From: Microbacterium invictum
GTDB taxonomy: Bacteria > Actinomycetota > Actinomycetes > Actinomycetales > Microbacteriaceae
Assembly: GCF_034421375.1 (NCBI RefSeq)
Contig: NZ_CP139779.1
Coordinates: forward strand, 620,001 to 684,000
Direction: 5' to 3'
Length of the DNA stretch: 64,000 nucleotides
Below are positions 47,283 to 63,486 of this stretch, in pieces. Numbering within the stretch: position 1 is the stretch's first letter; each line of letters opens with the position of its first letter. The notes below the pieces were generated by a model. The model was not told the DNA's origin. It made no database searches and saw only the letters and a list, made by a program, of their open reading frames with translations. The translations under genes were made by a program, and so were the position numbers.

Positions 47283-47371
47283 GGAGACGTCGCATAGTCA
47301 GGCCTAGTGCACCACCCTGCTAAGGTGGAGTCCCCTCACGGGGACCGAGGGTTCAAATCCCTCCGTCTCCG
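47283..47371 (+). tRNA. tRNA-Ser (anticodon GCT)
   Basis: Acceptor GGAGACG pairs with CGTCTCC at 47364-47370. The anticodon stem CCACC/GGTGG encloses CTGCTAA with GCT. A long variable arm (GTCCCCTCACGGGGAC) and a T-arm with GGTTCAAATCC follow. CCA is not encoded. TATGAT at 47243-47248 is a plausible -10 box. An integrase gene abuts the 3 prime end, so this tRNA is the probable attachment site. Confidence 0.96.
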
Positions 47372-47375
47372 CCGA

Positions 47376-47411: not shown

Positions 47412-48542
47412 TCAGAAGATCATGTTGCTCGTGGACGGCCCCAGATTTGGGTCCGGGGTCCCCCAGGGGTCCCCCGCCGAAATCTGACCCTCTGCGCGGG
47501 CCAATCTCTCAGCGTGATCGCGCCGCTGATCCTCGCCCAGAACGTGTGCGTAGACGGCGAGAACGGTGCGCGCCTCGTCGCCCAGGTACTCGGCCACTTC
47601 GTTCACCGGTGTGCCCAGGCGCAGCCAGGTCGACGCGGCGTAATGGCGCAGGTTGTGTCGCTCGAAGCCGAGCGGAAACTTTCGCACGACGCCGACGCTG
47701 AGCTGCTCGCCCAGCTTGTTGGTGAACAGGTAGTCGTCGGGGTGCTTGCGCGCCGCGTACTTCTCGAAGATCTCGTGCGCTCGCGGTGAGAGCGGGAGCG
47801 TTCGCTTGCCTCGCCACGACTTGGGGTTCTTCTCGTCGTAGCGGTCCGAGTGGGATCGATCGACGATGAGCTGCGGAAACGGCAGCCGGGATATCGAGTT
47901 GACACGTATCGCGCGCGCTTCACCCCATCGGATGCCCGTGAGGGACATGAACTCGAACACGTCCGCGATGTCGGGACGCTTGTCTCGGACGGCTTCGATC
48001 GCCGCGGCCAGACGCGCAGGAGTGGGTACGTCCTTCGGGCTGATCGCGCGCTGGGTCGTCGTGCTGAGTTCGGGGATCTTCCTCATCGTCCGGACCGGGT
48101 GTGCCTGGTGCAACAGACCGAGCTCTGCCGCATACGTGAAGAGTGCGCTAAGAGTTGTCCTCTCGCGCGCGACGGTGGACGGGGCCTTCCTCTGAAGTTG
48201 CGTGATGAGGTGCCCGCGAATGTCCTCCGAGTGAATCGTTGCCAGCGAGCGCTTGAGCAGTGCCTGGGGAAGGGCAGCGATGTTGTGTCGATCGGTGTCG
48301 ACCGTGTGAGGGTTCCCGCTCGCGCGCGCCTCGAGGAACATCTCGACGAGGTTCCCGAGAGTGAAGGTCCGTCTCGGAGGAAGTGGCTTCCCGGTCTCGA
48401 TCCGATGCTTCTGGTCTCGTTCCCACGCCTCCGCTTCGCGCCGAGTGTCAAACGCGCGGGTGGCGATGAGCTCACGACCTGACTTCACGCGCGCCTTGTA
48501 AGAGGTGCGCCCATCGGCAGTCTTGCGGACTTCGATGCTCAC
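47412..48542 (-). CDS. tyrosine-type site-specific integrase
   Basis: A 376-residue phage-type integrase. The N-terminal part (about 1-60) resembles an arm-binding domain, residues about 60-165 a SAM-like core-binding domain, and the catalytic domain has the first Arg in SLTGIRWGEAR, the His-x-x-Arg box in ERHNLRHYAAS and the tyrosine in VYAHVLG. It should recombine the tRNA-Ser attachment site. Its stop is 41 bases from the tRNA. The ATG overlaps the excisionase-like gene by four bases, so expression of both is coupled. Confidence 0.95.
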   Translation of the reverse strand: MSIEVRKTADGRTSYKARVKSGRELIATRAFDTRREAEAWERDQKHRIETGKPLPPRRTFTLGNLVEMFLEARASGNPHTVDTDRHNIAALPQALLKRSLATIHSEDIRGHLITQLQRKAPSTVARERTTLSALFTYAAELGLLHQAHPVRTMRKIPELSTTTQRAISPKDVPTPARLAAAIEAVRDKRPDIADVFEFMSLTGIRWGEARAIRVNSISRLPFPQLIVDRSHSDRYDEKNPKSWRGKRTLPLSPRAHEIFEKYAARKHPDDYLFTNKLGEQLSVGVVRKFPLGFERHNLRHYAASTWLRLGTPVNEVAEYLGDEARTVLAVYAHVLGEDQRRDHAERLARAEGQISAGDPWGTPDPNLGPSTSNMIF

Positions 48543-51654: not shown

Positions 51655-52659
51655 TCAGAGCGAGATGCCGCGGTCGACGTCGGGGGTCGAGACCGACGGG
51701 CCAGGCCGACGCTCCGGACGGCTCTCGACTTGGCTCGCCTGTCGAACAGCGAGGAGTTGTCTATCGAGCGCAGCTTCGGCATTCGGGCGAGCCTGCGAAT
51801 CCTGGGGGAGAGGCAGGGCGGGCACGACCTCGCGGCGACCGATCTCATGGAGCTGGACCAGGACTTCGCCGAGCGGGGCGGGAATCGGCCGAAGCGACAG
51901 TGCGAAATCGGTCGTTGCTCGAAGCTCGGATAGCCATCGCATGGCGCGTGCTGGGGATAGTGGTGACTCGCGTGCGAGATCGAGAGCGGCGAGGGCGCCG
52001 GCGAAGCCGCGCGGGTCGAGTCGGGGTTCATCGAACAGTGCAGTTCCGTTGCGGTCGATGATGGTGAGCTGGTCAACGCTGGGCGCTGTCTCAAGAGTTT
52101 CGATCAGTGCGCGGCTGTCGAGGTAGAGCTTGTCGTGGTCTGCGAGCGCGGTGAGGGGAGACGCGCGACCCTCGCGGCTGTCGAGCAGGTACTTCGATGC
52201 CAAGGCGAGCAGGCTCTCGGCGCGGGGCACGGCAACCACCGCGACGGAGGTCTCGAAGCCGCTGGTGCTGAACAGGCCTGTTGCAGCTAGAGCAACCTCC
52301 GGCGTGCTGAGCGTGCCGTCGAGGAGCAACGATCGCTTGTCGGTCCTCGCGTGCTGGAGTGCGCTTCGCATCCATCCCGAAGCAGAGTCCTGCAGGATGC
52401 GCGCGCCCTCTGGTGAGCGGTCACGCGACAGCTTGAGGTACCGGGGGTGGAACGTGCGCAACTCGGTCGCGCTCAGAACGGCAACCGCGCGGCCGTTGGA
52501 GAGCTGACCCGCAGCACGTGTGACCGCGCTGCCGGGCTGACCCACGACGAACGTCATCTGCGGCGACTCGCTGCGCGGCTCGTCGGGAAAGACGATCGGC
52601 ACGATCTGCTCGTCGAATATCCGCTGCGCGGCCACTTCCGTGAGGACGGTGTCACTCAT
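51655..52659 (-). CDS. zeta-toxin-like protein with degenerate P-loop
   Basis: A 334-residue protein whose layout follows the zeta-toxin / UDP-GlcNAc kinase family: an N-terminal helix-rich lead (FDEQIVPIVFPDEP), the first strand and loop FVVGQPGSAVT, TFHPRYLKL, then SLLLDGTLSTPEVA. In active family members the loop reads GQPGAGKT or similar and an aspartate lies just before the HP motif. Here the Lys is replaced (Val46) and the region before HPRY reads SATELRTF. ATP binding and kinase activity therefore look lost. The last ~60 residues are low-complexity. It overlaps the small upstream gene by ATGA, like a toxin behind its antitoxin. Confidence 0.7.
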   Translation of the reverse strand: MSDTVLTEVAAQRIFDEQIVPIVFPDEPRSESPQMTFVVGQPGSAVTRAAGQLSNGRAVAVLSATELRTFHPRYLKLSRDRSPEGARILQDSASGWMRSALQHARTDKRSLLLDGTLSTPEVALAATGLFSTSGFETSVAVVAVPRAESLLALASKYLLDSREGRASPLTALADHDKLYLDSRALIETLETAPSVDQLTIIDRNGTALFDEPRLDPRGFAGALAALDLARESPLSPARAMRWLSELRATTDFALSLRPIPAPLGEVLVQLHEIGRREVVPALPLPQDSQARPNAEAALDRQLLAVRQASQVESRPERRPGPSVSTPDVDRGISL

Positions 52660-52910
52660 TGCCGCAACCCCTCGAGCTCAGCAAGTCGCGACTCGATGTC
52701 GGTGAGGAGTTGGTCCACGCGCGCTCGGTCGAAGCCGGAATCAAGCAGATCGCGGCGAAATCGCTTCGCCTCGTCAAGGGCGGCATTGGTGTCGAGCGCT
52801 CCTGTGCGGGAGAGATCGAGCAGCAGCGCGACGACGTTGCCTACTGCTTCGCGAGCGAGATCGAACCTCGCAGCGTCGTTCGCGCGCCACGCCGACGTTT
52901 CGACCGTCAT
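52656..52910 (-). CDS. small helical protein, probable partner (antitoxin position) of the zeta-like protein
   Basis: An 84-residue, mostly helical, charged product (MTVETSAWRANDAARFDLAR to ESRLAELEGLRQ), size and position as expected for an epsilon-like antitoxin, though I see no sequence identity to epsilon. A strong GGAGG lies five bases before the ATG. Its stop overlaps the zeta-like start by ATGA, so the two are made in coupled fashion with the small protein first. Confidence 0.65.
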   Translation of the reverse strand: MTVETSAWRANDAARFDLAREAVGNVVALLLDLSRTGALDTNAALDEAKRFRRDLLDSGFDRARVDQLLTDIESRLAELEGLRQ

Positions 52911-53069
52911 CGATCCTCCTGCCCGGATTCTATCCGTCCGGGTGGAACGGACTCTCGGCATGCAGCGCGGACGGCTTCATCCCTATGAAGGGCTTCCGCG
53001 TGCGATCCGGATGGTCAATGTCGTCGGCTCCGACGTAGCATCGACTCGCGGCCGGAGATTGGGGACGAC

Positions 53070-53359: not shown

Positions 53360-53828
53360 CGTGCGCACGCGTCAGTCAGTCCTTGCCGACTGGCGAGCAG
53401 GATCCTCTTACGAGCAACGCCCGGAAGGGGGGCGTCGCCCGTCCACCGTTGCGTGCGCTTCGTATCCATTGACGCAAGGGCCGATGCGAGCTCCCGTGAT
53501 GATCCTGACCGGCGGGCTCGGCCGCGGACGACCCACGGAGACGGGTCAGCGCGATTCGAGGGACTGCCTCATATCACCGGTAAAGCGGTCACCCCGCTGG
53601 CTGGCATAGGAGTACTGCACAGGCCATCGCCCACATCCGAGCACTCGTGGGGGTGCTGCTGCGCTTCGACAGTTAGTGGGAAGTTGGCTCAGGCGGTGCG
53701 GTTCGCCGGTACATCTCGGCCCGCGACCGAGCGGGGCCGGCAAATTCGAAGCTTCAAATCGTCCCTTCGCGCAAGGCCGGACGCGGTTGACTCGTCACCG
53801 GCGCCAAGGGTGGAATAGCGTCGCCGTC
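53360..53828. other. gene-free stretch
   Basis: About 470 bases in which all six frames give only short Arg/Pro/Ser-rich products without a ribosome site or recognisable motif. Nothing else was seen. It lies between the frameshifted gene and the 3 prime end of the ubiquitin-like operon, so it should hold that operon's terminator, but no clear hairpin stands out. Confidence 0.5.
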
Positions 53829-54227
53829 TCAGGGTCGCTGGCTGAGTCGGCGCCACAGCCGCCGCCAGAACCCGACACGCTCGCGGGACCGGAAGTACGA
53901 TTCCAGGTCGCGCTCGTCGCTGCGTCTGGCGGTTTCCACTCGTTCACGGTCCCACGCCCGCGCCCACTCCACGCGGCCCCGGGTGATGAAGTAGTGGGAC
54001 CGGCATGGGAAGTCCCAGTTGCCGACCGACGGTCGCAAGGTGACGCCGGCTTCGCGGTCCTCAATACGCCACTCCGCCGGGCTCAGCGGAAGGAACACCT
54101 TTGTTCCGCATCCGCACGCGCATAGGTGCGCAGTGATTGCGAAGCTCTCGCTGATGTAGAGGGTGTGCGGTTCCGGTGCGCGCGGGATGTACTCCACGAA
54201 CGCGGGGGTGAACGACTCACTTCGCAT
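53829..54227 (-). CDS. DUF6527 family protein (ubiquitin-like operon)
   Basis: A 132-residue protein. It has LYISESFAITAHLCACGCG with cysteines 36, 38 and 40, PLSPAEWRI, LRPSVGNWDFPCRSHYFI with Cys75, Ser77 and His78, and a V-x-W end, all conserved positions as I recall the DUF6527 family. These proteins are found almost only beside multiubiquitin and ThiF/E1 genes. The Cys/His set could bind zinc or form an active site for cleaving the Ubl, which is inference. The C-terminal tail is Arg/Trp-rich. It overlaps the E1 gene by 11 bases and is the last gene of the operon. Confidence 0.8.
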   Translation of the reverse strand: MRSESFTPAFVEYIPRAPEPHTLYISESFAITAHLCACGCGTKVFLPLSPAEWRIEDREAGVTLRPSVGNWDFPCRSHYFITRGRVEWARAWDRERVETARRSDERDLESYFRSRERVGFWRRLWRRLSQRP

Positions 54228-55419
54228 CGGTTCGGGCCTCGTTCATGAGACGGTTGCCGTCCAGGGTGTAGGTGCTGGTGATCTCGTTTTCGTAGTCCCG
54301 GTAGAAGCCGAGCGTCTTCTTCCAGCTGATGACTGCGTGGGCGGCGTTCAGCATGTTGAGCTCGACGACTTGGATGTTCTGGTCGTAGATGTTGTCGTCG
54401 TCGGTGAAAGACAGATTCGCGTCGACCCATTCCATAGTGTCGGCGCCAGCGTTGATGCGGGTGGTGCGGACGAGTCCGCCGAGGGCGCTTCCCACCTGGT
54501 CGATGCCCATGCCGGTGTCCACGAAGGAGATACCCGAGCGGATGAGGTGGTCGATGATCACCCGCTTGCTCGGTCCGGAGTCGATGGCGATGAACACGAA
54601 GTCCATCTCCTCGAGCAGCCCGGCGTTGTCCTCCGTGACGTTCTCCGGGTGAGGGATCACGTGTTTGTGGAGTGCGCTAGTCACACGGTGGTGGTGGGCG
54701 ACTTTCGTGGGAGCTTCGAGGAGCTGTTCGAGGGGTGTGGCGCCGGGCGCGCGGAAGGCGTTGTGCGGGTGGAAGTCGTCGGCGTCGAACAGGTGGATCT
54801 CCGCTGCGTGGGTCTTGATCACGGCGTCGAGGATGTACGACCCGGTGCCGCCTAGGCCGATGATGGCGACCCGCTGGCCACGGATCTTGTCGGCGGCGGC
54901 ACCGATGCGTGCGCGGCTCGTGGCTGAGTCGAAGTACTGGTGGACGGACTCGTCGCCTTCCGTAGCCATCGGCGCGAACGTCTCCACGCGGACGTCTGGG
55001 TCAACCCGGTGGACCTCGGTGAGCAGGATGCTCGCGTATGTGGTCAGCTTCTCGTAGTAGTCGGGGTACCCGGCCGGCGGTTTGTGGGAGAAGCCGCAGC
55101 TGGCTACCACCTCCGACCCGAGCTCCACGGCGCTCGGCTGGTGCATGAGCGCGGTGAGCGGCTGGGCCTCGCTGTCGCAGGGCACGTCACCTGGGGTGCC
55201 GGTGGCGCCGACGAAGAAGACCGTGTGGTCGCCGACAGGGTTTGTGGTTCTGTCCCCGGCGGATTCGAGTGTGGTGGCCAGACGCCCGCGGGCGATGTGA
55301 CCGTCGGTGGTGACGTAGGGCACGCTGAGGGTCAGCATGTTGGAGACGAACTGGACCTCGTACCCTTCGTCGACCAGGCGCCTGAGGTCGTCGCTACGAC
55401 TTAATAGTTGCCTTGACAT
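54217..55419 (-). CDS. ThiF/E1-like Ubl-activating enzyme with N-terminal DUF6791-like domain
   Basis: A 400-residue protein of two halves. Residues about 1-165 match the DUF6791-type domain (DHTVFFVGATGTPGDVPCD, then KPPAGYPDYYEKLTTYAS) that may act like an E2. Residues about 170-370 are the ThiF/E1 adenylation domain with VAIIGLGGTGSYILD (184-198), DADDFHPHNAFR carrying the Mg/ATP residues, APTKV and IAIDSG. The only cysteines in the whole protein are Cys81 and Cys108, both in the N-terminal half; the adenylation half has none and no CxxC zinc pair. It should adenylate the C-terminus of the neighbouring Ubl. Overlaps both neighbours (26 and 11 bases). Confidence 0.88.
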   Translation of the reverse strand: MSRQLLSRSDDLRRLVDEGYEVQFVSNMLTLSVPYVTTDGHIARGRLATTLESAGDRTTNPVGDHTVFFVGATGTPGDVPCDSEAQPLTALMHQPSAVELGSEVVASCGFSHKPPAGYPDYYEKLTTYASILLTEVHRVDPDVRVETFAPMATEGDESVHQYFDSATSRARIGAAADKIRGQRVAIIGLGGTGSYILDAVIKTHAAEIHLFDADDFHPHNAFRAPGATPLEQLLEAPTKVAHHHRVTSALHKHVIPHPENVTEDNAGLLEEMDFVFIAIDSGPSKRVIIDHLIRSGISFVDTGMGIDQVGSALGGLVRTTRINAGADTMEWVDANLSFTDDDNIYDQNIQVVELNMLNAAHAVISWKKTLGFYRDYENEITSTYTLDGNRLMNEARTDAK

Positions 55420-55651
55420 TGAAGACGGTGCCCTTCCTCTTCACTTCGACGGACTGGCCTGCGGTGAGCGTGCCTTCCTTCGGCTTGTGGGCGTTGTAGT
55501 AGGTGACCGTGAACCGGGTGTCGGCGGCGGGCGGATCGGGGTAAGCCAGCGTGATCACCTCCGCGTAAGTCACTGTGTCGTCCGGCACGTCGTAGGCGGT
55601 GCCGCTGACGATGATCTCGATGCTCTTGGGGTTTTTCGCGTGGTCGTTCAT
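55394..55651 (-). CDS. single-domain multiubiquitin-family ubiquitin-like protein
   Basis: An 85-residue beta-grasp protein matching the multiubiquitin (Multi_ubiq) domain: IEIIVSGTAYDVPDDTVTYA, the TRFTVTYYNAH strand, GTLTAGQSVEVKRKGTVFNV and the ending KATIKS. Many relatives carry several such domains in tandem; this one has a single copy. The C-terminus lacks a Gly-Gly pair and ends Lys-Ser, which as I recall is usual for this family. It should be the modifier that is activated by the following E1. It overlaps the E1 start by 26 bases. Confidence 0.85.
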   Translation of the reverse strand: MNDHAKNPKSIEIIVSGTAYDVPDDTVTYAEVITLAYPDPPAADTRFTVTYYNAHKPKEGTLTAGQSVEVKRKGTVFNVKATIKS

Positions 55652-55704
55652 GTGTTGCTCACTTTCGGGTTGAGGAGGAGCGGCCGCGCGTGCGGCCGCT
55701 CCTG

Positions 55705-55863
55705 TCAGTTCTTCTCGTTGCGTACCCCCTTGTGCTGGTTGGGGCTGCCGTTCATGATCCGACCTGTTGCGGTGTCCCGCTTGAACCAGGTGCCGTTGTG
55801 CTGAAACTCGCTCCGGCCGCGCACGGCGCCGGTGCGATGACCACGTCCGGTGTTCTTCGCCAC
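55705..55863 (-). CDS. 52-residue basic protein inside the ubiquitin-like operon
   Basis: A short gene reading MAKNTGRGHRTGAVRGRSEF, then GTWFKRDTATGRIMNGSPN, then KGVRNEKN. It is strongly basic, with a KRD..TGR centre that I associate with small uncharacterised phage and island proteins. GTG 55863 lies nine bases behind AAGGGGG; a second GTG at 55869 is too close to it. It sits 80 bases after the ImmA/IrrE gene and 53 bases before the Ubl gene, in the same direction. It could be a substrate, adaptor or nucleic-acid-binding factor; nothing in the sequence decides. Confidence 0.65.
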   Translation of the reverse strand: MAKNTGRGHRTGAVRGRSEFQHNGTWFKRDTATGRIMNGSPNQHKGVRNEKN

Positions 55864-55943
55864 GTCCACTCACCCCCTTCCCGGAGGCGGCTTCGGTGTG
55901 CCTCCACCAAGTAGTCGAGACAGGACGGGGAGGTGTAAGCGGG

Positions 55944-56951
55944 TCAGCGGCAGTCGACGCAGACGCCGTCTTCGAGGAGTGCAGGCCGGTACAGCCGGAA
56001 GCACTCGGTGCACGACTGGTCAGATGCGGTCGCGCGTTCGCACTGGCAGAGACCGCAGCTCGGGCAGTACGGCTTCTGGCAGGTGGGGCAGGGGTAGCCC
56101 CGCACCTGGAAATCCGTGCCGCAGCAGTAGCCGCGGAGGAGAAGCCGAGTGTCGAAGGACCGGTCGATAAGCGGTGCACCCGTCCCAGGTGTCCACAGGT
56201 CCGTGTCAGCGAAGACGCACACGATCTTCCTGCGTGTCACGAGCACGTCGACGTAGAAGTCGTCCTCGCTCCATCGGCCGCGCCACGTGATGCGCTCGAT
56301 GCGGGTCGCAGCATCGGGCAGCTCGAGCAGATGGTGGCCTTCGGGGAGCCGCTGGCCGCGCCACGGGATGACGGCGGGCCAGCCCCGGTCGGGATCCGGG
56401 CGGACGCTGGCGTCGGTGACCTCGCCGCTGACCCGGTCGATGAGCGCGATAGCGCCCATCCCGCGCAGGTGCTCGGCGACAGCAATCATGCAGACCGGGT
56501 GGCTTGCCTGGGTGGTGTCGAACAGGTCAATGATGTGATGCGCGCGCACGGGGCCGCGCCCGACGAGTTCCGCCGCGATCTGTGCCGGCAACAACAGCTC
56601 GCGGGCGAACCGGTCGCAGATTGTCTCCAACATCCGGCCGTCCACGTCATTGTCGGCCAGCCAATCCAGCACCGGGTCCAGTCTCCCGACCACCCAATGC
56701 CCGAGTTCGTGGGCGAGCGTGAAGTTCTCACGCCGATTTCCTGTGGGCCGGTACAGCACCACACCGTCGTCGAGGAACGACATCCCGTCGCAGAACCCGC
56801 CGTCATCGCGCGCCCGAGCAAGGTCCGGCGCTGGTCTCACGACCAAGTCGAGCTGCGACGTCAGAGTGAGAAGCGGATTGCTAGGGAACAGCGCGCGCAC
56901 GTCGGCGGGAACTGCCGCTACGGCAAGGCGGACACAGTCATCGATGTTCAC
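55944..56951 (-). CDS. ImmA/IrrE-family metallopeptidase with 12-cysteine C-terminal tail
   Basis: A 335-residue protein. The zinc peptidase motif is FTLAHELGHWVVG (HELGH at 81-85) and the third ligand is probably Glu109 in LETICDRFARELLLP. The middle part is predicted beta-rich. The last ~60 residues hold twelve cysteines (YCC, PCPTC, YCPSCGLCQC, SCTEC, VCVDC), enough for two or three zinc ribbons or treble clefs. ImmA/IrrE enzymes usually cleave repressors; the XRE-like protein encoded just upstream is an obvious candidate. GTG start overlaps that gene by 14 bases. Confidence 0.87.
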   Translation of the reverse strand: MNIDDCVRLAVAAVPADVRALFPSNPLLTLTSQLDLVVRPAPDLARARDDGGFCDGMSFLDDGVVLYRPTGNRRENFTLAHELGHWVVGRLDPVLDWLADNDVDGRMLETICDRFARELLLPAQIAAELVGRGPVRAHHIIDLFDTTQASHPVCMIAVAEHLRGMGAIALIDRVSGEVTDASVRPDPDRGWPAVIPWRGQRLPEGHHLLELPDAATRIERITWRGRWSEDDFYVDVLVTRRKIVCVFADTDLWTPGTGAPLIDRSFDTRLLLRGYCCGTDFQVRGYPCPTCQKPYCPSCGLCQCERATASDQSCTECFRLYRPALLEDGVCVDCR

Positions 56952-57597
56952 TGGCGTCTTCGACCGTGCGCACCAGAGCGTCCAGGGCCCCGAGAACCTG
57001 CTCCGGGTCAGGGAGTTGCCCCCGGTGAACCGTCGCAGCCATACGGCTGTCGAGCTCTGCGCGTGCGACCGCCAGCGCTATGTGCCGCACCCGAGCCCAT
57101 CGCGCGACGATCTGCTCAAAAGCCGGCGCCAGCCGGACGGCTTCAAACCGGTCCGGCCCCGAACCCGGGCCTTGTATCAGCCCGTCGACCTGAGTACCCA
57201 GTTCATCGGCAATGGCCTGGACGAGGGCCGGGGGGACATCGGCGGCAGCGCTCTGCCACCGCACGACGTCCGCGGTCGAATGATCCCAGCCTCTGGACCT
57301 GAGGCCCTGCGCCAATACGCTGGCGGAAATGTGTGCGCGTTGCCGGGCTCTTGCGAACGACTGTGGATCCAGCGAACACTCCCGGTCTGGCACCAACCCG
57401 AGCAACGCCGCGACGGGATCCTCGTCCAACGGCGGTGCTCCCTGCGTCGCAAGCCACGCCGCTTCCGCGGTGAACAGCAACGCGTCCAGCCGCTCGACCA
57501 CGTCGGAGTCGGCGTGCGAGTCACGCAGCAGCGCGTCCCGCTGCTCGGGGTTCGCGACAAGATCGGCGAGGAGTCGGTCAAACTCGTCCTCGTTCAC
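56938..57597 (-). CDS. XRE-like helix-turn-helix protein (219 aa)
   Basis: Residues about 80-135 (SFARARQRAHISASVLAQGL, then STADVVRWQS and ALVQAIADELG) resemble an XRE/Cro helix-turn-helix. The N-terminal ~75 residues are acidic and helical, and the C-terminal ~80 residues form another helical region with LAPAFEQIVARWARVRHIAL. It should be the operon's DNA-binding regulator or an anti-sigma-like partner. GTG start overlaps the sigma factor stop (GTGA), and its end overlaps the peptidase start. Confidence 0.68.
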   Translation of the reverse strand: MNEDEFDRLLADLVANPEQRDALLRDSHADSDVVERLDALLFTAEAAWLATQGAPPLDEDPVAALLGLVPDRECSLDPQSFARARQRAHISASVLAQGLRSRGWDHSTADVVRWQSAAADVPPALVQAIADELGTQVDGLIQGPGSGPDRFEAVRLAPAFEQIVARWARVRHIALAVARAELDSRMAATVHRGQLPDPEQVLGALDALVRTVEDASEHR

Positions 57598-58115
57598 CTG
57601 GTCACGCCCTTCCTCACAAGATCATCGTTCAGCTTCTGCAATGCCTGTTTCAGGATCTGGTTGACCCGTGGGCGGCTGACACCGAGCTCCTCTGCCAGTT
57701 CACCCTGCGGCCGCTGATTCTGGATGTGTTCTCGGACGATGTAACGCTCACGTTCGTCCAGTACGGCCATGCTGTCCCACAGGTGTGCTCCGGCGCGAGC
57801 CGCATCGACCTTCTCGTCCACGTCGCCGATAGCGTCCTCGCCCGGGTCGGTCTGGTCGTCGTGGTCCATGTCGAGCGTGCGACCGAAGTGCCGGACGTCC
57901 GCCGCGCGGATACGGTCGTACGCCTTGTTCTTCACTACACGCACCAGGAACGCCTCCCAGTTGTGGACGCCCGTCGGCGGGTTGGCTGCCACGGACAGCA
58001 TCGCCTCACCGACCACGTCGTCCTTCTCATCCTGCAACCCGACTTCACGCAGAACCGATGCGGCCACGCGGTGAAGCGTGTCCCTGTGCCGCAGGTAGAG
58101 AGCCCCGATGTCCAC
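57594..58115 (-). CDS. ECF-like sigma-70 family sigma factor
   Basis: A 173-residue sigma factor. Region 2 is about 5-75 (LYLRHRDTLHRVAASVL, VVGEAMLSVAANPP, WEAFLVRVVKNKAYDRIRA). A long acidic linker (DMDHDDQTDPGEDAIGDVDE) precedes region 4, about 115-165 (LDERERYIVREHI, LAEELGVSRPRVNQILKQAL). Size and layout are those of ECF sigma factors. It is the first gene of the leftward operon and may direct transcription of that operon. GTG 58115 is preceded by AGAGG at a six-base spacing. Confidence 0.88.
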   Translation of the reverse strand: MDIGALYLRHRDTLHRVAASVLREVGLQDEKDDVVGEAMLSVAANPPTGVHNWEAFLVRVVKNKAYDRIRAADVRHFGRTLDMDHDDQTDPGEDAIGDVDEKVDAARAGAHLWDSMAVLDERERYIVREHIQNQRPQGELAEELGVSRPRVNQILKQALQKLNDDLVRKGVTR

Positions 58116-58555
58116 GAGTACCTCTACACGTCAACCAGTTCAGGCATCAATTGTTCTCTTTCCACCCTGTAGTCGAGACAGGCGCTCCACCTGTAAGAGT
58201 TTGTGGTCCTGATTGTCCGATCGAGGCGTGCGCCGTAGGTCGCACGACACACCCCGTCCAGGCTTCCCGCAGCCAGGCCATGCATCGAATCAACCGCTGG
58301 CGTGCCAGCTGGTCGTTCCATCAGGTGGCGCCGCCCATCCGGGAGGTGAATGATTCGGAAGCCAGATTTTGGGCGGCGCGCGCGGTGGGGAGCGGTCGCG
58401 AGCGGCTGTCAAAATGCGCGTCCGCCATCCGTAAACGGGCACTGCACGTAAGGGGTTCGGCCGTTGCGGTCGCGGCGGCTGCGATTGCGATTGCGATTGC
58501 GACTGATGGTCGGATGTCAATCGCGGTTGCCGGGCGCGTCCGGCCTAAGGATGTG
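58116..58555. other. intergenic region between sigma-factor operon and RCC1-repeat gene
   Basis: 440 bases with no supported gene. It should contain the sigma operon promoter near 58116-58200. The first copy of a 15-bp direct repeat is at 58436-58450, and a short GCGATT microsatellite lies at about 58481-58505. No clear terminator for the RCC1 gene was found. Confidence 0.6.
58436..58450. repeat. 15-bp direct repeat, left copy
   Basis: CGGGCACTGCACGTA, identical to 61226-61240. The pair encloses exactly the RCC1-repeat gene and its divergent TetR gene. Confidence 0.7.
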
Positions 58556-60367
58556 TCATCGGTGTGACTGCTCGCGGTGTTCGGTGCGGTGAGTCTCTCT
58601 TGCGATGGTGACGGAGGTTGTCGCTGAGGCGATCGTCGTCGTGCCTGCGATGGCGGTGATGCTGATGGGGATGACTGACCTGGGGGTGAGATTCTTGGGT
58701 ATCTTGACGGTGGCGGTGAAGGTGCGCTTGGTCGGGTTGTAGGTTGCGCACGTGGCGGTGTTTCCACGCAGCGTCACCTTCACTGCGCATGTGGTGGACA
58801 GTTGTTGGGCGAGGGTTGCGGGGATGGGTTTCCCGCCGGACCCGGAGAGGGTGAACGTCACCGGCACGGCCGACCCGGCCTTGGTCTTGGTCTTGGCGGG
58901 CGGGCTCAGTTTGGTGACGGTGAGTCCGACGACGTAGTCGACGGTGACGGTGGTGGTGTTGCCGGCGCGGTCGGTGGCGGTGCAGGTGAGGGTGCGCGGC
59001 CCGGGGGTGGAGGTGTTGACGGGTTGGCAGGAGGACGAGGCGATGCCCGACCCGCCCCGATCGGTCGCGTTGGCCTTGACGGTGACCTTGCTGCCGTACC
59101 AGATCAGGCCACCCTTCAGGGTCGGGCGCAGGGTGGGGGCGGTCTTGTCGATCTTCACCGGGTGGGTCGCGGTGCCGGTGTTGCCTGCCCGATCGGTGCA
59201 CGATCCGGAGAGGATCTGCGCGCCTTCGCCGACGCTGGTGGTCGTGGCCTGGCACGCGGCAGGGTCGATGCCGGAGCCGTCGCCGTCGGACCAGTTCCAC
59301 GACACCGTCACATCGGTGTTGTTCCACCCTGCCGCGTTCGCCGCCGGAGCCTGAGCAGCCGACGGCACCGGCGCAACCTCATCCACCGACGCCACCCCCA
59401 CGATCGCCATCGAGAGGACGTAGCCAGCGGTGATCGCGACGACATTTGCCAGACCGGCTGGCACGGCCGACTGGCCGAAGAAGTTGCTCCCCCAGGCGGT
59501 GACCGTTCCGTCGGAGTGCAACGCGAGGGAATGGTCGCCGGCGGCGATCGCGACGACATCGGCGAGCCCGGCCGGCACGGCGGTCTGCCCGGAGACGTTG
59601 CTCCCCCAGGCGGTGACGGTTCCGTCCGAGTGCAACGCGAGGGAATGGAGGTAGCTGGCGGCGATCGCGACCACATCGGCGAGCCCGGCCGGCACGGCGG
59701 TCTGCCCGGAGCCGTTGCTCCCCCAGGCGGTGACGGTTCCGTCCGAGTGCAACGCGAGGGAATGATCGAGGCCGGCGGCAATCGCGACCACATCGGCAAG
59801 ACCGGCCGGAACGACCGTCTGTCCAACGGAGTTGTCTCCCCAGGCGGTGACCGTTCCATCGGAGTGCAACGCGAGGGAATGGTCTCCGCCTGCGGCGATC
59901 GCGACCACATCGGCGAGCCCGGCCGGCACGGCCGTCTGTCCCCAGATGTCGTACCCCCAGGCGGTGACCGTTCCGTCCGAGCGCAACGCGAGGGAATGGT
60001 ATCCGCCGGCGGCAATCGCGACCACATCGGCAAGACCGGCCGGAACGACCGTCTGTCCAACGGAGTTGTTCCCCCAGGCGGTGACCGTTCCGTCGGAGCG
60101 CAACGCGAGGGAATGGAATCTGCCGGCGGCGATGGCGACCACATCCGCCAGACCGGCCGGAACGGCCGTCTGCCCGAAGGCGTTGTCTCCCCAGGCGACG
60201 ACAGTGCCCGAGGTCGCGGACGCGCCAGGGGGGATCGTGCCGACCGGTGCGGCGGACGCGGCCGACGCGGCGGTCATCGCGAAGACCACCCCGACCACGG
60301 CCGCGACAGCTACGCCGCGCAGACGCACAAGGGCCGGCGCACCGACCTCAGACGAAGATCGCACCAT
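58556..60367 (-). CDS. secreted RCC1-repeat (beta-propeller) protein with Ig-like domains
   Basis: A 603-residue exported protein. A signal peptide (about 1-42, ending ASAAPVG) is followed by seven 39-residue RCC1-type repeats with the core VPAGLADVVAIAAG and LALRSDGTVTAWG, which should form a seven-bladed propeller. At the DNA level the repeats are 117 bp (one is 114 bp) and nearly identical. From about residue 325 there are cysteine-paired Ig-like domains (CQATTTS, CTDRAGNTGTATHPV, CTATDRAGNTTTVTV). No sorting signal is seen. A GGGAG site lies eight bases before the ATG. A divergent TetR protein and an operator suggest repression. Likely role: surface or extracellular binding. Confidence 0.85.
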   Translation of the reverse strand: MVRSSSEVGAPALVRLRGVAVAAVVGVVFAMTAASAASAAPVGTIPPGASATSGTVVAWGDNAFGQTAVPAGLADVVAIAAGRFHSLALRSDGTVTAWGNNSVGQTVVPAGLADVVAIAAGGYHSLALRSDGTVTAWGYDIWGQTAVPAGLADVVAIAAGGDHSLALHSDGTVTAWGDNSVGQTVVPAGLADVVAIAAGLDHSLALHSDGTVTAWGSNGSGQTAVPAGLADVVAIAASYLHSLALHSDGTVTAWGSNVSGQTAVPAGLADVVAIAAGDHSLALHSDGTVTAWGSNFFGQSAVPAGLANVVAITAGYVLSMAIVGVASVDEVAPVPSAAQAPAANAAGWNNTDVTVSWNWSDGDGSGIDPAACQATTTSVGEGAQILSGSCTDRAGNTGTATHPVKIDKTAPTLRPTLKGGLIWYGSKVTVKANATDRGGSGIASSSCQPVNTSTPGPRTLTCTATDRAGNTTTVTVDYVVGLTVTKLSPPAKTKTKAGSAVPVTFTLSGSGGKPIPATLAQQLSTTCAVKVTLRGNTATCATYNPTKRTFTATVKIPKNLTPRSVIPISITAIAGTTTIASATTSVTIARETHRTEHREQSHR

Positions 60368-60409
60368 TGAGATCACTCCCTCGAACCAGCGCCCCAGACG
60401 CCACCGAGA

Positions 60410-60429
60410 AACGGACGAAACAGTCCGCT
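60410..60429. promoter_or_regulatory. probable TetR operator upstream of the RCC1 gene
   Basis: CGGAC (60412-60416) and GTCCG (60423-60427) are inverted half-sites around GAAACA, with an additional A:T pair outside (60410/60429). The site lies about 43 bases upstream of the RCC1 start and 95 bases from the TetR start. Confidence 0.5.
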
Positions 60430-60523
60430 GTGTCATCGTGGCACACGGAAGGCACGCGCGCCAGATCTCCCGCCACCGGTTGCGGTCCGATGGAACGCCC
60501 TGGTCGCGGGCTAGCCTTGGGCA

Positions 60524-61207
60524 GTGGCCGACGACCGGAATGTGCAGCGCGCGGACGCCCGCCGTAACCGGCAGGACCTGCTGGCCGCCGCGGGGCAGCT
60601 GATCGTGGAGCGGGGCACGGACTTCCCGATGAAAGACGTCGCCACCCGCGCCGGGCTCGGCGTCGGCACCCTGTACCGCCACTTCCGCGACCGTCACGAC
60701 CTGTTCGCCGCGCTCGCTGCCGAAGCCGCCGCGAGACAGAACGCGATCGCCCTGACCGCGCTGACCGCGCCCACCGGGTGGGATGCGATCGCCCAGTACC
60801 TGGACGGGTGCGTCGCGCTCTACGCGGAGCTTCCGTGGATGCTCACCATGCGGGCGGAGTACCGATACATGCGGCTGCCCGACGATGCCGAGGTGGATGC
60901 CGGCCAGGAGATCGTCGACCGCGCCCACCGCGAGGGCGCACTCCGACCCGACGCCGGCATCGTCGACATCGCCCTCGCCGGAACCATGCTCGCGGGCATG
61001 ACCTTCCTCCCCGAGCCCGTGCGCACCGCAATGATCCCCCGACTGCGCGACATCATCCTCGACGGACTGCACACCAACCGCGGCGACCTCACCGCACCGA
61101 CCAGCACCGGACTCACCGCAGAAGAACTCACCGCAGAAGAACTCACCGACATCGCCCGTGCGCAGATCTCAGCCAGCCAAGGCTCCCCACAACGCCAGCA
61201 CCACTGA
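60524..61207 (+). CDS. TetR-family transcriptional regulator
   Basis: A 227-residue regulator with the TetR helix-turn-helix FPMKDVATRAGLGVGTLYRH (about 34-53) followed by FRDRHDLFAALAAEA. The C-terminal end contains a 15-base in-frame duplication giving TAEELTAEEL. It is divergent from the RCC1-repeat gene and probably its repressor. GTG 60524 lies six bases behind TAGCCT, so the mRNA is likely leaderless. A 15-bp direct repeat follows 19 bases after the stop. Confidence 0.9.
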   Translation: MADDRNVQRADARRNRQDLLAAAGQLIVERGTDFPMKDVATRAGLGVGTLYRHFRDRHDLFAALAAEAAARQNAIALTALTAPTGWDAIAQYLDGCVALYAELPWMLTMRAEYRYMRLPDDAEVDAGQEIVDRAHREGALRPDAGIVDIALAGTMLAGMTFLPEPVRTAMIPRLRDIILDGLHTNRGDLTAPTSTGLTAEELTAEELTDIARAQISASQGSPQRQHH

Positions 61208-61225
61208 CCTCGCGCGATCCTTATT

Positions 61226-61240
61226 CGGGCACTGCACGTA
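61226..61240. repeat. 15-bp direct repeat, right copy
   Basis: CGGGCACTGCACGTA, identical to 58436-58450; flanks differ on both sides of both copies. It may mark the edge of an inserted RCC1/TetR cassette. Confidence 0.7.
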
Positions 61241-61395
61241 CGCGGGACCGCTACGAGCGGCCGACCTTGACTGGGCTGACCGGTCCCCGGGCAATGACGC
61301 GGCAGTCCCTCTAACTAGCCGGCGGCGATGCCGCCGCATGTACTGCCGCGCCGCCCAACCCGCCCGACCGGTGTCCACCGACGCCCGTCAGAGTC

Positions 61396-62850
61396 CTACA
61401 AGATTCCGTCCAGGAATTCAGAGTGCTGGGGAACGATACCTGGGCTGAGCGACGCTAGAACAGTTCGGTGTTCCGCGGCTAGACCGGGGGATCGCTGAGC
61501 TCGTTTGGACCCTGACAGGGCGGTCGCGCGAAGCCATTCCTTGGGCGCCTGTCCGAGGTTGTCTCCTTCGCGGAGGTAGTCGCCGACGCTAGACCCGACG
61601 TCAGCGGTCCACCATGGCGCTTCAAAGACTCGGTGCGGGTTGGTTCGGGGTGAACGGTAGGCAGGATCGCCGAAAACCTGAACGATCGGGATTCGACGGA
61701 CTTGATCGTCGTCGAGCAACAGCGACAGAGTCCCGATCATGTAGCCCTCGATGTAGCAGGCGTCGTAGTAGCGGCGAAGACCAATGGCCTTGACAAAAAG
61801 ATGAGCGTAGTTGTGAACCACTGCCGCAACGCGTTCGGGATCTGAGTACTCGCCGCGCGTTCGAAGCAGCCGTACCCTTCCGAGGGCAGCAATCAGCCCG
61901 TCCTGGTATGACTGTGTGAAAGCGCCGAAGGCTCCGGGGACCGCGACCAGCTCCTCGGACGCTACGTGGGCTCCCAGTACGACTGAACGCAGCCACTCCG
62001 CTCGATCGAGGTTGTCATCCGGAACGTGATGGCCGGAGTCCTCGAGTCGACTCTTGAGAATGTGGGCGAAGTGTCCTCCATCAGTTCGCAGGTGCTCGAG
62101 ACCAAACTCTCCAGCAACGGCTGCGTCTACGGGCGTAACGAGGTAAGCGCGCCGCCTCAAGCGACCCATGCGTTCGATGACAGTGCTGTAGACGTTGCGA
62201 AAGTCTGAGTCAGACAACGAATAGCCGACAAAGACGATCGTCTTGGTAGCGAGGTAGTCCCGTAGCTTCCCGCCCATGACTGACTCCATGAGATCGGACG
62301 CGCGGCGATCATAGTCTTCGCTCGTCGCTACGATGCTGGACAGGTTCGATACGGATCCGTGCAGCTTCATCACCCGTCGCCCCGGCATGCCGAAAAAGGC
62401 GAAGTCCTCATCGAGCACGAACGGTCTGGCGCCCGAGAAGCGCTCAAAGAAGTCATCCCAGTTCGTTGTGAACAGAGCATCCAGCTGAGTGATCGTTGCG
62501 ATTTCTTGGTGAAAAGCAGTCGTGCGATTCAGGAGGGACTGGAATGTGTAGACATAGTCGAGTCGCTCGATCAGGGTTCGGATAAGGTTGGCCCTGCCGA
62601 ATCGATCCTCGAAGTCCTGCATGACCTCAGGGAAGGAATCGTCGGAGGGCGTGTCGCGAAGGCGCGCTTCGATCTCCTCATAGAAGGTTTCCGGGAACAG
62701 TCCCGGCTTCTCCGTGGAGATACCTGCGCCAGCGAACACCACTAGCTCCCGCTTCCGGGCCGCATCGACGATCTCGTCTGGCAGGTCGATCGGATAGTGG
62801 GTGGAACAGTTCGCGCACCCCTCCCGAAGCGGCGCCGAAGCAAGCGACAT
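61396..62850 (-). CDS. SIR2-family NADase-like defence protein
   Basis: A 484-residue protein. The SIR2 Rossmann domain covers about 25-260: VVFAGAGIS (38-45-region) binds NAD, TTNWDDFF (128-135) and KLHGS with the catalytic histidine at 164, and VFVGYSLSDSDFRNV (206-220). It lacks the four-cysteine zinc module of protein deacetylases; only a CxxC pair lies at the extreme N-terminus (Cys12, Cys15). The C-terminal ~220 residues are an unassigned helical region. Stand-alone SIR2 proteins of this shape are known NAD-depleting phage-defence effectors. AAGGA precedes the ATG. Base composition is less GC-rich than the neighbours. Confidence 0.85.
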   Translation of the reverse strand: MSLASAPLREGCANCSTHYPIDLPDEIVDAARKRELVVFAGAGISTEKPGLFPETFYEEIEARLRDTPSDDSFPEVMQDFEDRFGRANLIRTLIERLDYVYTFQSLLNRTTAFHQEIATITQLDALFTTNWDDFFERFSGARPFVLDEDFAFFGMPGRRVMKLHGSVSNLSSIVATSEDYDRRASDLMESVMGGKLRDYLATKTIVFVGYSLSDSDFRNVYSTVIERMGRLRRRAYLVTPVDAAVAGEFGLEHLRTDGGHFAHILKSRLEDSGHHVPDDNLDRAEWLRSVVLGAHVASEELVAVPGAFGAFTQSYQDGLIAALGRVRLLRTRGEYSDPERVAAVVHNYAHLFVKAIGLRRYYDACYIEGYMIGTLSLLLDDDQVRRIPIVQVFGDPAYRSPRTNPHRVFEAPWWTADVGSSVGDYLREGDNLGQAPKEWLRATALSGSKRAQRSPGLAAEHRTVLASLSPGIVPQHSEFLDGIL

Positions 62851-62988: not shown

Positions 62989-63486
62989 TTATGGCCCCGG
63001 GTGTCGGTGACGGCGGCGCTGGATCCCTCTCCGGGTAACGCTCGTAAGCGGTGCGTCGCGAGCGGCCCCGGCATGCTCGACAGCCATCCCCATCCGCGCA
63101 ATGCGCGTAGGCGGTACGTCGCGTGCCCCGCCACAAAGCCGGGTGGCGGCGATCCCTCCCGCAACGGTGCGTGCGATCAGCCGACAGCCGCGTCCTTCGT
63201 CCCGTTGGGTCTCATTTCGATGCCGCGAAGTAGTCCGTACTACGGACCCGCTTTCAGCTCCGCGCGCCCGTATCCCCCTCCGGATTCGTAGAGCGGGGCG
63301 GCGCTGGCGTCCTCGTGAGACCAGGACGAGGGAGCCGTGAGGCTCGACATACTCGCGCGTGCTGCGCTTGTACGCCTCACGACATTCTTCGCGCCAGTCG
63401 CTCCGGTCGGGGCCACCCATGCACCGCCACTCGCGCGAGTCCGCGTCTCGGTTGGGCCAGAACCGATTGGGGTCGAACGCGCTCAC
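62989..63486 (-). CDS. doubtful small hypothetical protein, possibly frameshifted
   Basis: The first ~50 codons from GTG 63486 look protein-like (MSAFDPNRFWPNRDADSREW, DWREECREAYKRSTREYVEP) and start four bases after the stop of the restriction-like gene, as an operon partner would. Beyond about 63330 this frame becomes Arg-rich and unconvincing, while the next frame continues with HEDASAAPLYESGGGYGRAE and stops at about 63238. Either the gene is short and frameshifted or only its beginning is real. No function is recognised. Confidence 0.3.
   Translation of the reverse strand: MSAFDPNRFWPNRDADSREWRCMGGPDRSDWREECREAYKRSTREYVEPHGSLVLVSRGRQRRPALRIRRGIRARGAESGSVVRTTSRHRNETQRDEGRGCRLIARTVAGGIAATRLCGGARDVPPTRIARMGMAVEHAGAARDAPLTSVTRRGIQRRRHRHPGP
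63037..63123. repeat. imperfect direct repeat (two 24-bp copies)
   Basis: 63037-63060 and 63100-63123 match at 20 of 24 positions (core GCGGTGCGTCGCG / GCGGTACGTCGCG), 63 bases apart. They lie in the ~600-base stretch between the SIR2 gene start and the restriction-like gene, where no well-supported gene was found. Confidence 0.5.

Follow-up and report, generated by a model that had tools for sequence, protein, structure and literature searches.

A sigma factor, XRE-like protein and ImmA peptidase cassette with paired promoter-like motifs before a ubiquitin-like operon and other payloads in Actinomycetota

Immune operons able to kill their host need tight control, and three families of damage-sensing controllers have been named, CapW/BrxR, CapH with CapP, and CapK with CapS (PMC13373217). 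CapW, CapH with CapP and CapK with CapS act by lifting repression, and in the available portion of that paper none of the three families is described with a sigma factor (PMC13373217). The locus described here lies at positions 53829 to 58115 of a 64,000-nucleotide stretch of the Microbacterium invictum genome (contig NZ_CP139779.1, positions 620,001 to 684,000; hereafter the window), where genes for an extracytoplasmic function (ECF) sigma factor, an XRE-like protein and an ImmA/IrrE-type metallopeptidase head an operon encoding a ubiquitin-like protein (Ubl), an E1 enzyme and a DUF6527 protein.

CapH and CapP were reportedly described by Lau in 2022 as controllers of CBASS and Bub operons, and the Bub system (BubA, BubB and BubCD; PDB 9ea4 and relatives) is said to stem from work by Ye in 2026. 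The Ubl, E1 and DUF6527 core of the locus is of an old kind, class 6e of Iyer, Burroughs and Aravind 2006 (PMC1779556), and is spread over many phyla. In the accessible text of that work the class has a Ubl of one to three repeats next to an E1 with a JAB domain or, in a subset, another N-terminal domain, and a metal-binding protein of the pattern C-x3-C-x35-38-H-x2-C, confirming the statement of a preliminary description of the window that Ubl/E1 loci with a metal-binding partner had already been noted by comparative genomics.

The controller cassette and its payloads

All seven open reading frames (ORFs) were confirmed on the minus strand from the ORF listing and translations, and the leftward order, coordinates, overlaps (4, 14, 26 and 11 bases) and gaps (80 and 53 bases) given in the preliminary description were all reproduced. 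Every gene name was backed by family scans, except that of the XRE-like protein. The first gene (57594..58115, 173 aa) encodes an ECF-type sigma-70 factor (Sigma70_r4, 2e-11; Sigma70_r2, 6e-8; sigma70-ECF, 5.7e-20) with SigL as its best PDB match. The XRE-like protein (56938..57597, 219 aa) gave no family match in Pfam, NCBIfam, PADLOC or PHROGs; its predicted structure (mean predicted local distance difference test score of 90.4) places an XRE-type helix-turn-helix (HTH) at residues 77-144, between a helical N-terminus (residues 1-65) and a helical C-terminal part. The third gene (55944..56951, 335 aa) encodes an ImmA/IrrE (M78) CapP-like metallopeptidase, hereafter ImmA, with an intact HELGH motif and a tail bearing 12 invariant cysteines. 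Its Peptidase_M78 match lies slightly under the Pfam cut-off (20.4 against 22 bits), it matches PADLOC CapP at 2.6e-13, and the PDB sequences closest to its profile are IrrE chains. Residues H81, E82, H85 and E109, which we take to have ligand roles, were invariant in all ten aligned sequences. The gene that follows encodes a basic 52-aa protein (55705..55863) matching the PADLOC PDC-S38 model at 3e-14, a label that in the library's naming presumably denotes a defence candidate. Its GTG start was placed two codons inside the frame of the ORF listing, which opens at another GTG; called homologues begin MAKNTG.

Across Actinomycetota, 18 loci were found to carry the sigma, XRE-like and ImmA genes as a triad of constant order. 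A profile of the XRE-like protein matched 12 of 398 genomes of the host's family, ten of them strongly (host included), with all ten strong loci carrying the three genes in order on one strand; across the phylum it matched 2 of 396 genomes, the host and one weak case. Five further triads came from ImmA profile searches of 396 genomes of the order and 394 of the class, samples which overlap, and three more (Pseudarthrobacter, Prescottella and Nocardioides) from among seven matching records of a plasmid collection. The sigma gene was present in 18 of 18 triads and the 52-aa gene in 13. Two weak XRE loci with no other triad gene (L104, L105) were not counted, nor was one at which a weak sigma match adjoins a weak XRE match with no ImmA (L106, genome G189). 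By these profiles no triad was found at the distant ImmA relatives L155, L156, L176-L178 and L183-L186, or in two Streptomyces plasmid records with a distant ImmA (of four); L185 precedes a Bub-like operon. Locus L182 (genome G1298), with a truncated ImmA gene and a 52-aa gene, looks like a decayed copy of the head.

The payload behind the triad was found to differ between loci. The DUF6791-type Ubl core follows it in two (the window and L098) and a Bub-type set of Ubl, small protein and E1 in four (L099, L100, L102, L154), among which the E1s of L100 (9e-21) and L102 (7e-30) align with most of the length of BubCD and that of L154 is 55% identical to that of L100. A complete BilABCD operon was identified in L103 (PADLOC BilA, 1.7e-28; BilB, 4e-38; BilC, 8.5e-53; BilD, 3.7e-115), and a type II CBASS in L174, where patatin, CD-NTase and E1-E2 genes come after the 52-aa gene and a gene weakly resembling Cas2 (0.006). 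The other ten loci carry a 52-aa gene with DUF3892 (L095-L097), with Bflower below its cut-off (L101), with a small protein (L152, L175), with a 303-aa protein weakly matching PDC-M36A at 1e-9 (L153), with a 237-aa protein without an assigned family (L179) or with KTSC (L180), or else have no 52-aa gene, with AbiE-like genes farther on (L181). The small protein of L152 is 43% identical over 65 residues to the Cas2-like one of L174, and that of L175 is similar by eye.

Evidence for exchange comes from the heads of L098 (Ubl core) and L096 (DUF3892), which share 83.5% DNA identity over 2589 nt, in an alignment spanning 132 nt before the sigma gene to 37 nt past the 52-aa gene, beyond which the payloads differ. 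Between L095 and L096, of identical payload type, the alignment continues past that boundary. The point at which the first alignment ends therefore defines the conserved unit as promoter, sigma, XRE-like, ImmA, promoter and 52-aa gene, the last being the shared end of the cassette. At the level of sequence, these comparisons show the head to be a cassette exchanged between different payloads.

The preliminary description took a head found beside the Ubl core in this strain alone as a reason to give up its reading; this is not the case, as the full seven-gene layout recurs in genome G670. Homologues of E1 and the XRE-like protein, the two of the seven genes compared, also lie on contigs of matching length in Microbacterium aurum and two metagenome contigs. 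A chance packing of short overlapping genes in a gene-dense island, with head and core functionally unrelated, would fit with the head accompanying just two of the 17 strong E1 cores of the family sample and with none of 93 other Ubl cores having a sigma or XRE match within 5.5 kb upstream. It is nonetheless most unlikely given G670, where the layout and both promoter-like motifs described below are conserved despite head proteins only 36-47% identical to those of the window.

The payloads bear on a further alternative, namely that a genuine controller drives a Ubl payload whose role is a general stress or proteostasis response and not phage defence. Several payloads of the same head are without an immune match, and Bub operons are, according to PMC13373217, without a proven antiphage role. 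On the other side, Bil and type II CBASS, before which the same head is placed, are both classes of antiphage operon. The island that carries the locus also bears an integrase gene, the neighbours of the locus include a zeta toxin and a SIR2-like gene that has ThsA-like matches, and elsewhere the head is found on plasmids. Such a general role is regarded here as possible but doubtful.

Other arrangements around ImmA or Ubl genes were also observed. At L155, L156, L176 and L183, which include Streptomyces plasmids, a second head type has two genes for proteins of ~300-340 aa preceding the ImmA gene; both are related across the four loci at 25-55% identity, match neither the sigma nor the XRE profile and gave one weak HTH match in Pfam (0.012). 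In L156 and L176 this head precedes a Ubl-E1-DUF6527 core. On Rhodococcus plasmids (L187, L188, L189), a short ImmA gene is followed first by a divergent gene and then by the 52-aa gene and a ~300-aa gene, and the ~300-aa protein of L187 is 68% identical to the L153 payload protein, placing the same payload under a different ImmA switch. An Acinetobacter soli plasmid (L157) carries an annotated sigma-70 gene and a hypothetical gene ~3.5-4.5 kb upstream of a Multi_ubiq/ThiF/DUF6527 core; no triad-profile match was found in the stretch scanned, which leaves most of that sigma-70 gene outside.

Paired promoter-like motifs and a proposed switch

Two copies of a promoter-like motif, CTTACA-N15-TCGACTAC, were identified on the minus strand. 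One (58169..58197) lies 53 nt upstream of the sigma start codon and the other (55911..55939) in the gap that follows ImmA and precedes the payload, 47 nt ahead of the 52-aa gene, ranking second and first, respectively, among all window positions. The sequence CCTGTCTCGACTAC occurs exactly twice in the window and was found independently as repeat D4. In 17 of the 18 triads a GCTAACT-like block, ~15 nt and a TCGACTAC-like block, often followed by GTGA, were found at both places (consensus GCTAACT-N15-TCGACTAC), 33-104 nt before start codons and with the two blocks at nearly fixed spacing.

The sites were initially picked by the best fit of the downstream block in the intergenic stretch, a choice of which a held-out scan is independent for the tested locus. 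Matrices trained with the tested locus and near copies of it left out placed the two sites first and second among all positions of the two strands in 17 of 17 loci, for the window over its full 64 kb (L181, having no site, was excluded from the matrix); held-out scores of real sites go down to 8.4 bits, while the third-best window position reaches 14.6. With a matrix built from all 34 sites, every site scored 17.1 bits or more and non-triad loci stayed at or below 15.6, the exceptions to this ceiling being short copies of triad loci and the decayed L182. In the host genome the pattern CTWAC-N16-YCGACTAC is matched perfectly at two places, both in this locus; at up to one mismatch there are 4 matches against 7 for a reversed control pattern, and therefore only the perfect pair is notable.

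Upstream blocks were found to co-vary within loci, with 15 mismatches against 30.2 in shuffled pairings (13 loci, the redundant L096, L097, L098 and L100 being left out; 0 of 20,000 shuffles), as in the window (CTTACA at both sites) and in L103 (CTAAAC at both, with CGTCTAC at both). The downstream block gave a P of 0.019 in this pairing test and the stretch after it 0.12. The simplest reading of these motifs is that the sigma factor of each locus may read both. The spacer co-varies within loci too (P about 1e-4), and therefore common descent contributes to the matching of the upstream blocks.

The two-part motif could instead be the operator of the XRE-like protein acting as a repressor, with the sigma factor reading another promoter or acting elsewhere in the genome. 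The XRE-like protein does have a good predicted HTH, and CapS binds its own and its payload promoter, the same two-site layout (PMC13373217). The motif, however, is not palindromic by eye, except for a local palindrome in L175. An AAC upstream and a CGTC downstream, as seen in L103, are typical ECF promoter elements, and these, the near-fixed spacing and the position of the blocks before start codons argue against an operator, as does a generic scan that found no sigma-70-type promoter in 53500-58700. An operator is accordingly judged improbable, and promoters read by the sigma factor are preferred.

The preliminary description had also considered an operon split into independent units by an internal promoter or terminator. 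A promoter-like motif does lie inside, but it is the head's own motif and therefore links controller with payload, and no terminator-like site was found inside the operon. The same motif before sigma and before the payload favours the earlier suggestion of the head as a switch acting on the Ubl genes, although the head is not specific to them, as 16 of the 18 triads carry other payloads.

We consider it probable that the locus is an inducible immune-type operon with an exchangeable controller and a swappable payload, in which a CapH/CapP-like proteolytic switch would act via a dedicated sigma factor with positive feedback. The controller module would consist of the promoter, ECF sigma factor, XRE-like protein, CapP-like metallopeptidase, second promoter copy and 52-aa protein, and the payload module, here, of the Ubl, the E1 with DUF6791 and the zinc-type DUF6527 protein. 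At rest, the XRE-like protein would silence the sigma factor or its promoters. By analogy with known controllers, a stress signal, for example single-stranded DNA from phage attack or DNA damage, may activate the peptidase, which would then cut the XRE-like protein. The sigma factor would then fire both promoters, its own (positive feedback) and that of the payload, and the Ubl, E1 and DUF6527 protein would be made in a burst and tag a putative target, possibly in defence against phage.

The head thus looks like a plug-in on-switch for bacterial immunity, placed before several known or suspected antiphage systems. Whereas the controllers named in PMC13373217 lift repression, this one appears to activate via a dedicated sigma factor, which, if true, would give a sharper, self-amplifying response with all other host genes left silent. 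Exchange of the cassette as a unit makes the genes behind it candidates for new defence functions, namely the DUF6791/DUF6527 Ubl system, DUF3892, Bflower, the weakly Cas2-like proteins and the 303-aa protein shared with Rhodococcus plasmids.

The ubiquitin-like core and its island

The Ubl (55394..55651; 85 aa from an ATG taken from the sequence, the ORF listing having a longer frame) consists of one Multi_ubiq domain (1.6e-15) and ends in KATIKS. The E1 (54217..55419, 400 aa), a single copy in the 3.53-Mb one-contig host genome, was found to carry DUF6791 (1e-40) in place of JAB at its N-terminus, with no JAB match, and a ThiF adenylation domain (1.2e-13) closest to that of BubCD. The last gene (53829..54227, 132 aa) encodes a DUF6527 protein (6e-24) predicted to bind metal. 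The order Ubl-E1-DUF6527 is kept in 91 of the 93 other cores (L137 and L138, duplicates of L002 and L007, being excluded), both exceptions lying at contig ends, and Ubl adjoins E1 in all 93. In the window these two genes overlap by 26 nt, so no BubB-like E2 gene lies between them. At the Ubl C-terminus the pattern F(N/D)V..T.(K/R)S is conserved, and Ser takes the last position instead of Gly in 96 of 97 distinct loci (with two duplicates included, in 98 of 99; a spurious extra ORF of L145 excluded). Roughly its final eight codons run into the beginning of the E1 gene (55394-55419), where the second frame may force part of this conservation.

In the DUF6527 protein, H34, C36, C40, C75 and H78 are invariant in 18 aligned sequences, giving a pattern (C36-x3-C40-x34-C75-x2-H78) near the class 6e signature with the last pair reversed; a PDB sequence search for its fold gave no useful match. 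The DUF6791 model has helices, four strands and then a conserved H65...C81 (H-x9-C in most members), and UBC (E2) enzymes have a helix/strand layout with a similar H...C arrangement. An E2-like fold was nevertheless kept as no more than a lead, as it was not backed by a PDB profile search, a Pfam scan or profile-profile comparison with the E2-like proteins of L099, L100, L102, L154 and L185; in the structure searches the match lists were taken up by the ThiF domain of the E1. The literature searched holds no mention of DUF6527, DUF6791 or PDC-S38.

The locus is part of an island of ~76 kb. The left end of this island is formed by tRNA-Ser(GCT) (47283..47373, plus strand), the only Rfam match in the window, whose last 36 bp (47338-47373) recur at genome positions 743406-743441 within a truncated tRNA not called by ARAGORN. 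A phage-type integrase gene (47412..48542, minus strand; PF00589, 1e-9) lies beside the intact tRNA, and the G+C content is 0.65-0.69 inside the island against 0.71-0.72 before it (near side only). A phage origin of the locus was considered and rejected, as E1 and ImmA gave no match among 50,697 phage records and viral contigs gave only one weak XRE-like match (first 69 residues) and five weak ImmA matches. Island neighbours include a zeta-toxin-like kinase (51655-52961; 1.2e-25), which may form a toxin-antitoxin pair with the small gene that overlaps it upstream, and a second defence-like gene, that of the SIR2-like protein (61396-62850; PADLOC PDC-S25, 1.3e-15; ThsA, 7.7e-13). Directly upstream of the head lies the gene of an 838-aa RCC1-repeat protein (58556-61072), with DNA repeats at 117-nt spacing. 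A 33-nt sequence occurs in three copies (58423-58455, 61213-61245 and 63082-63114; 70-100% identity, the third weak), which set the head, the gene of the RCC1-repeat protein and the SIR2-like gene apart from one another.

Comparison with known systems

The Ubl core, the protease-HTH logic of the head and immune-operon controllers as a kind are already known. As far as the literature searched shows, with the papers defining Bub and CapP outside that search, the sigma-factor version, the twin promoter-like motifs and the exchange among Bil, Bub, CBASS and DUF6791 payloads are new.

With class 6e the locus shares the Ubl, an E1 with an uncharacterised N-terminal domain replacing JAB and a small protein, here predicted to bind metal. 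It differs in having regulators, none being described in the available text of PMC1779556, from which 'sigma factor' and 'transcription factor' are absent, and in having no separate E2/RWD gene. Compared to Bub, it is without a JAB or BubB-like gene, has DUF6791 at the N-terminal place and adds DUF6527. BilABCD and type II CBASS are alike as payloads of the same controller, while the window locus has none of the E2, JAB, CD-NTase or effector genes of these systems; no Bil model was found among the PADLOC matches listed for window proteins (for the E1, the best 25 of 26 families), nor a CD-NTase among the ten proteins scanned (the seven genes and three neighbours).

For the head, we know of no cis sigma factor or payload exchange in PprI/IrrE-DdrO or ImmA-ImmR. 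These systems are alike in that an M78 peptidase cuts an XRE repressor, as given for Deinococcus in the accessible part of PMC10904395.

Closest is CapH with CapP, likewise an XRE/HTH protein and an M78 metallopeptidase (HExxH) upstream of E1-containing immune operons, and the controller described here also lies upstream of immune-type payloads (Bil, type II CBASS and Bub-type). The window XRE-like protein differs in its extra N-terminal helical region and the peptidase in its 12-Cys tail, which to our knowledge CapP does not have. Furthermore, whereas CapH with CapP is a two-gene controller, the module of the window is headed by an ECF sigma factor and has a shared pair of promoter-like motifs.

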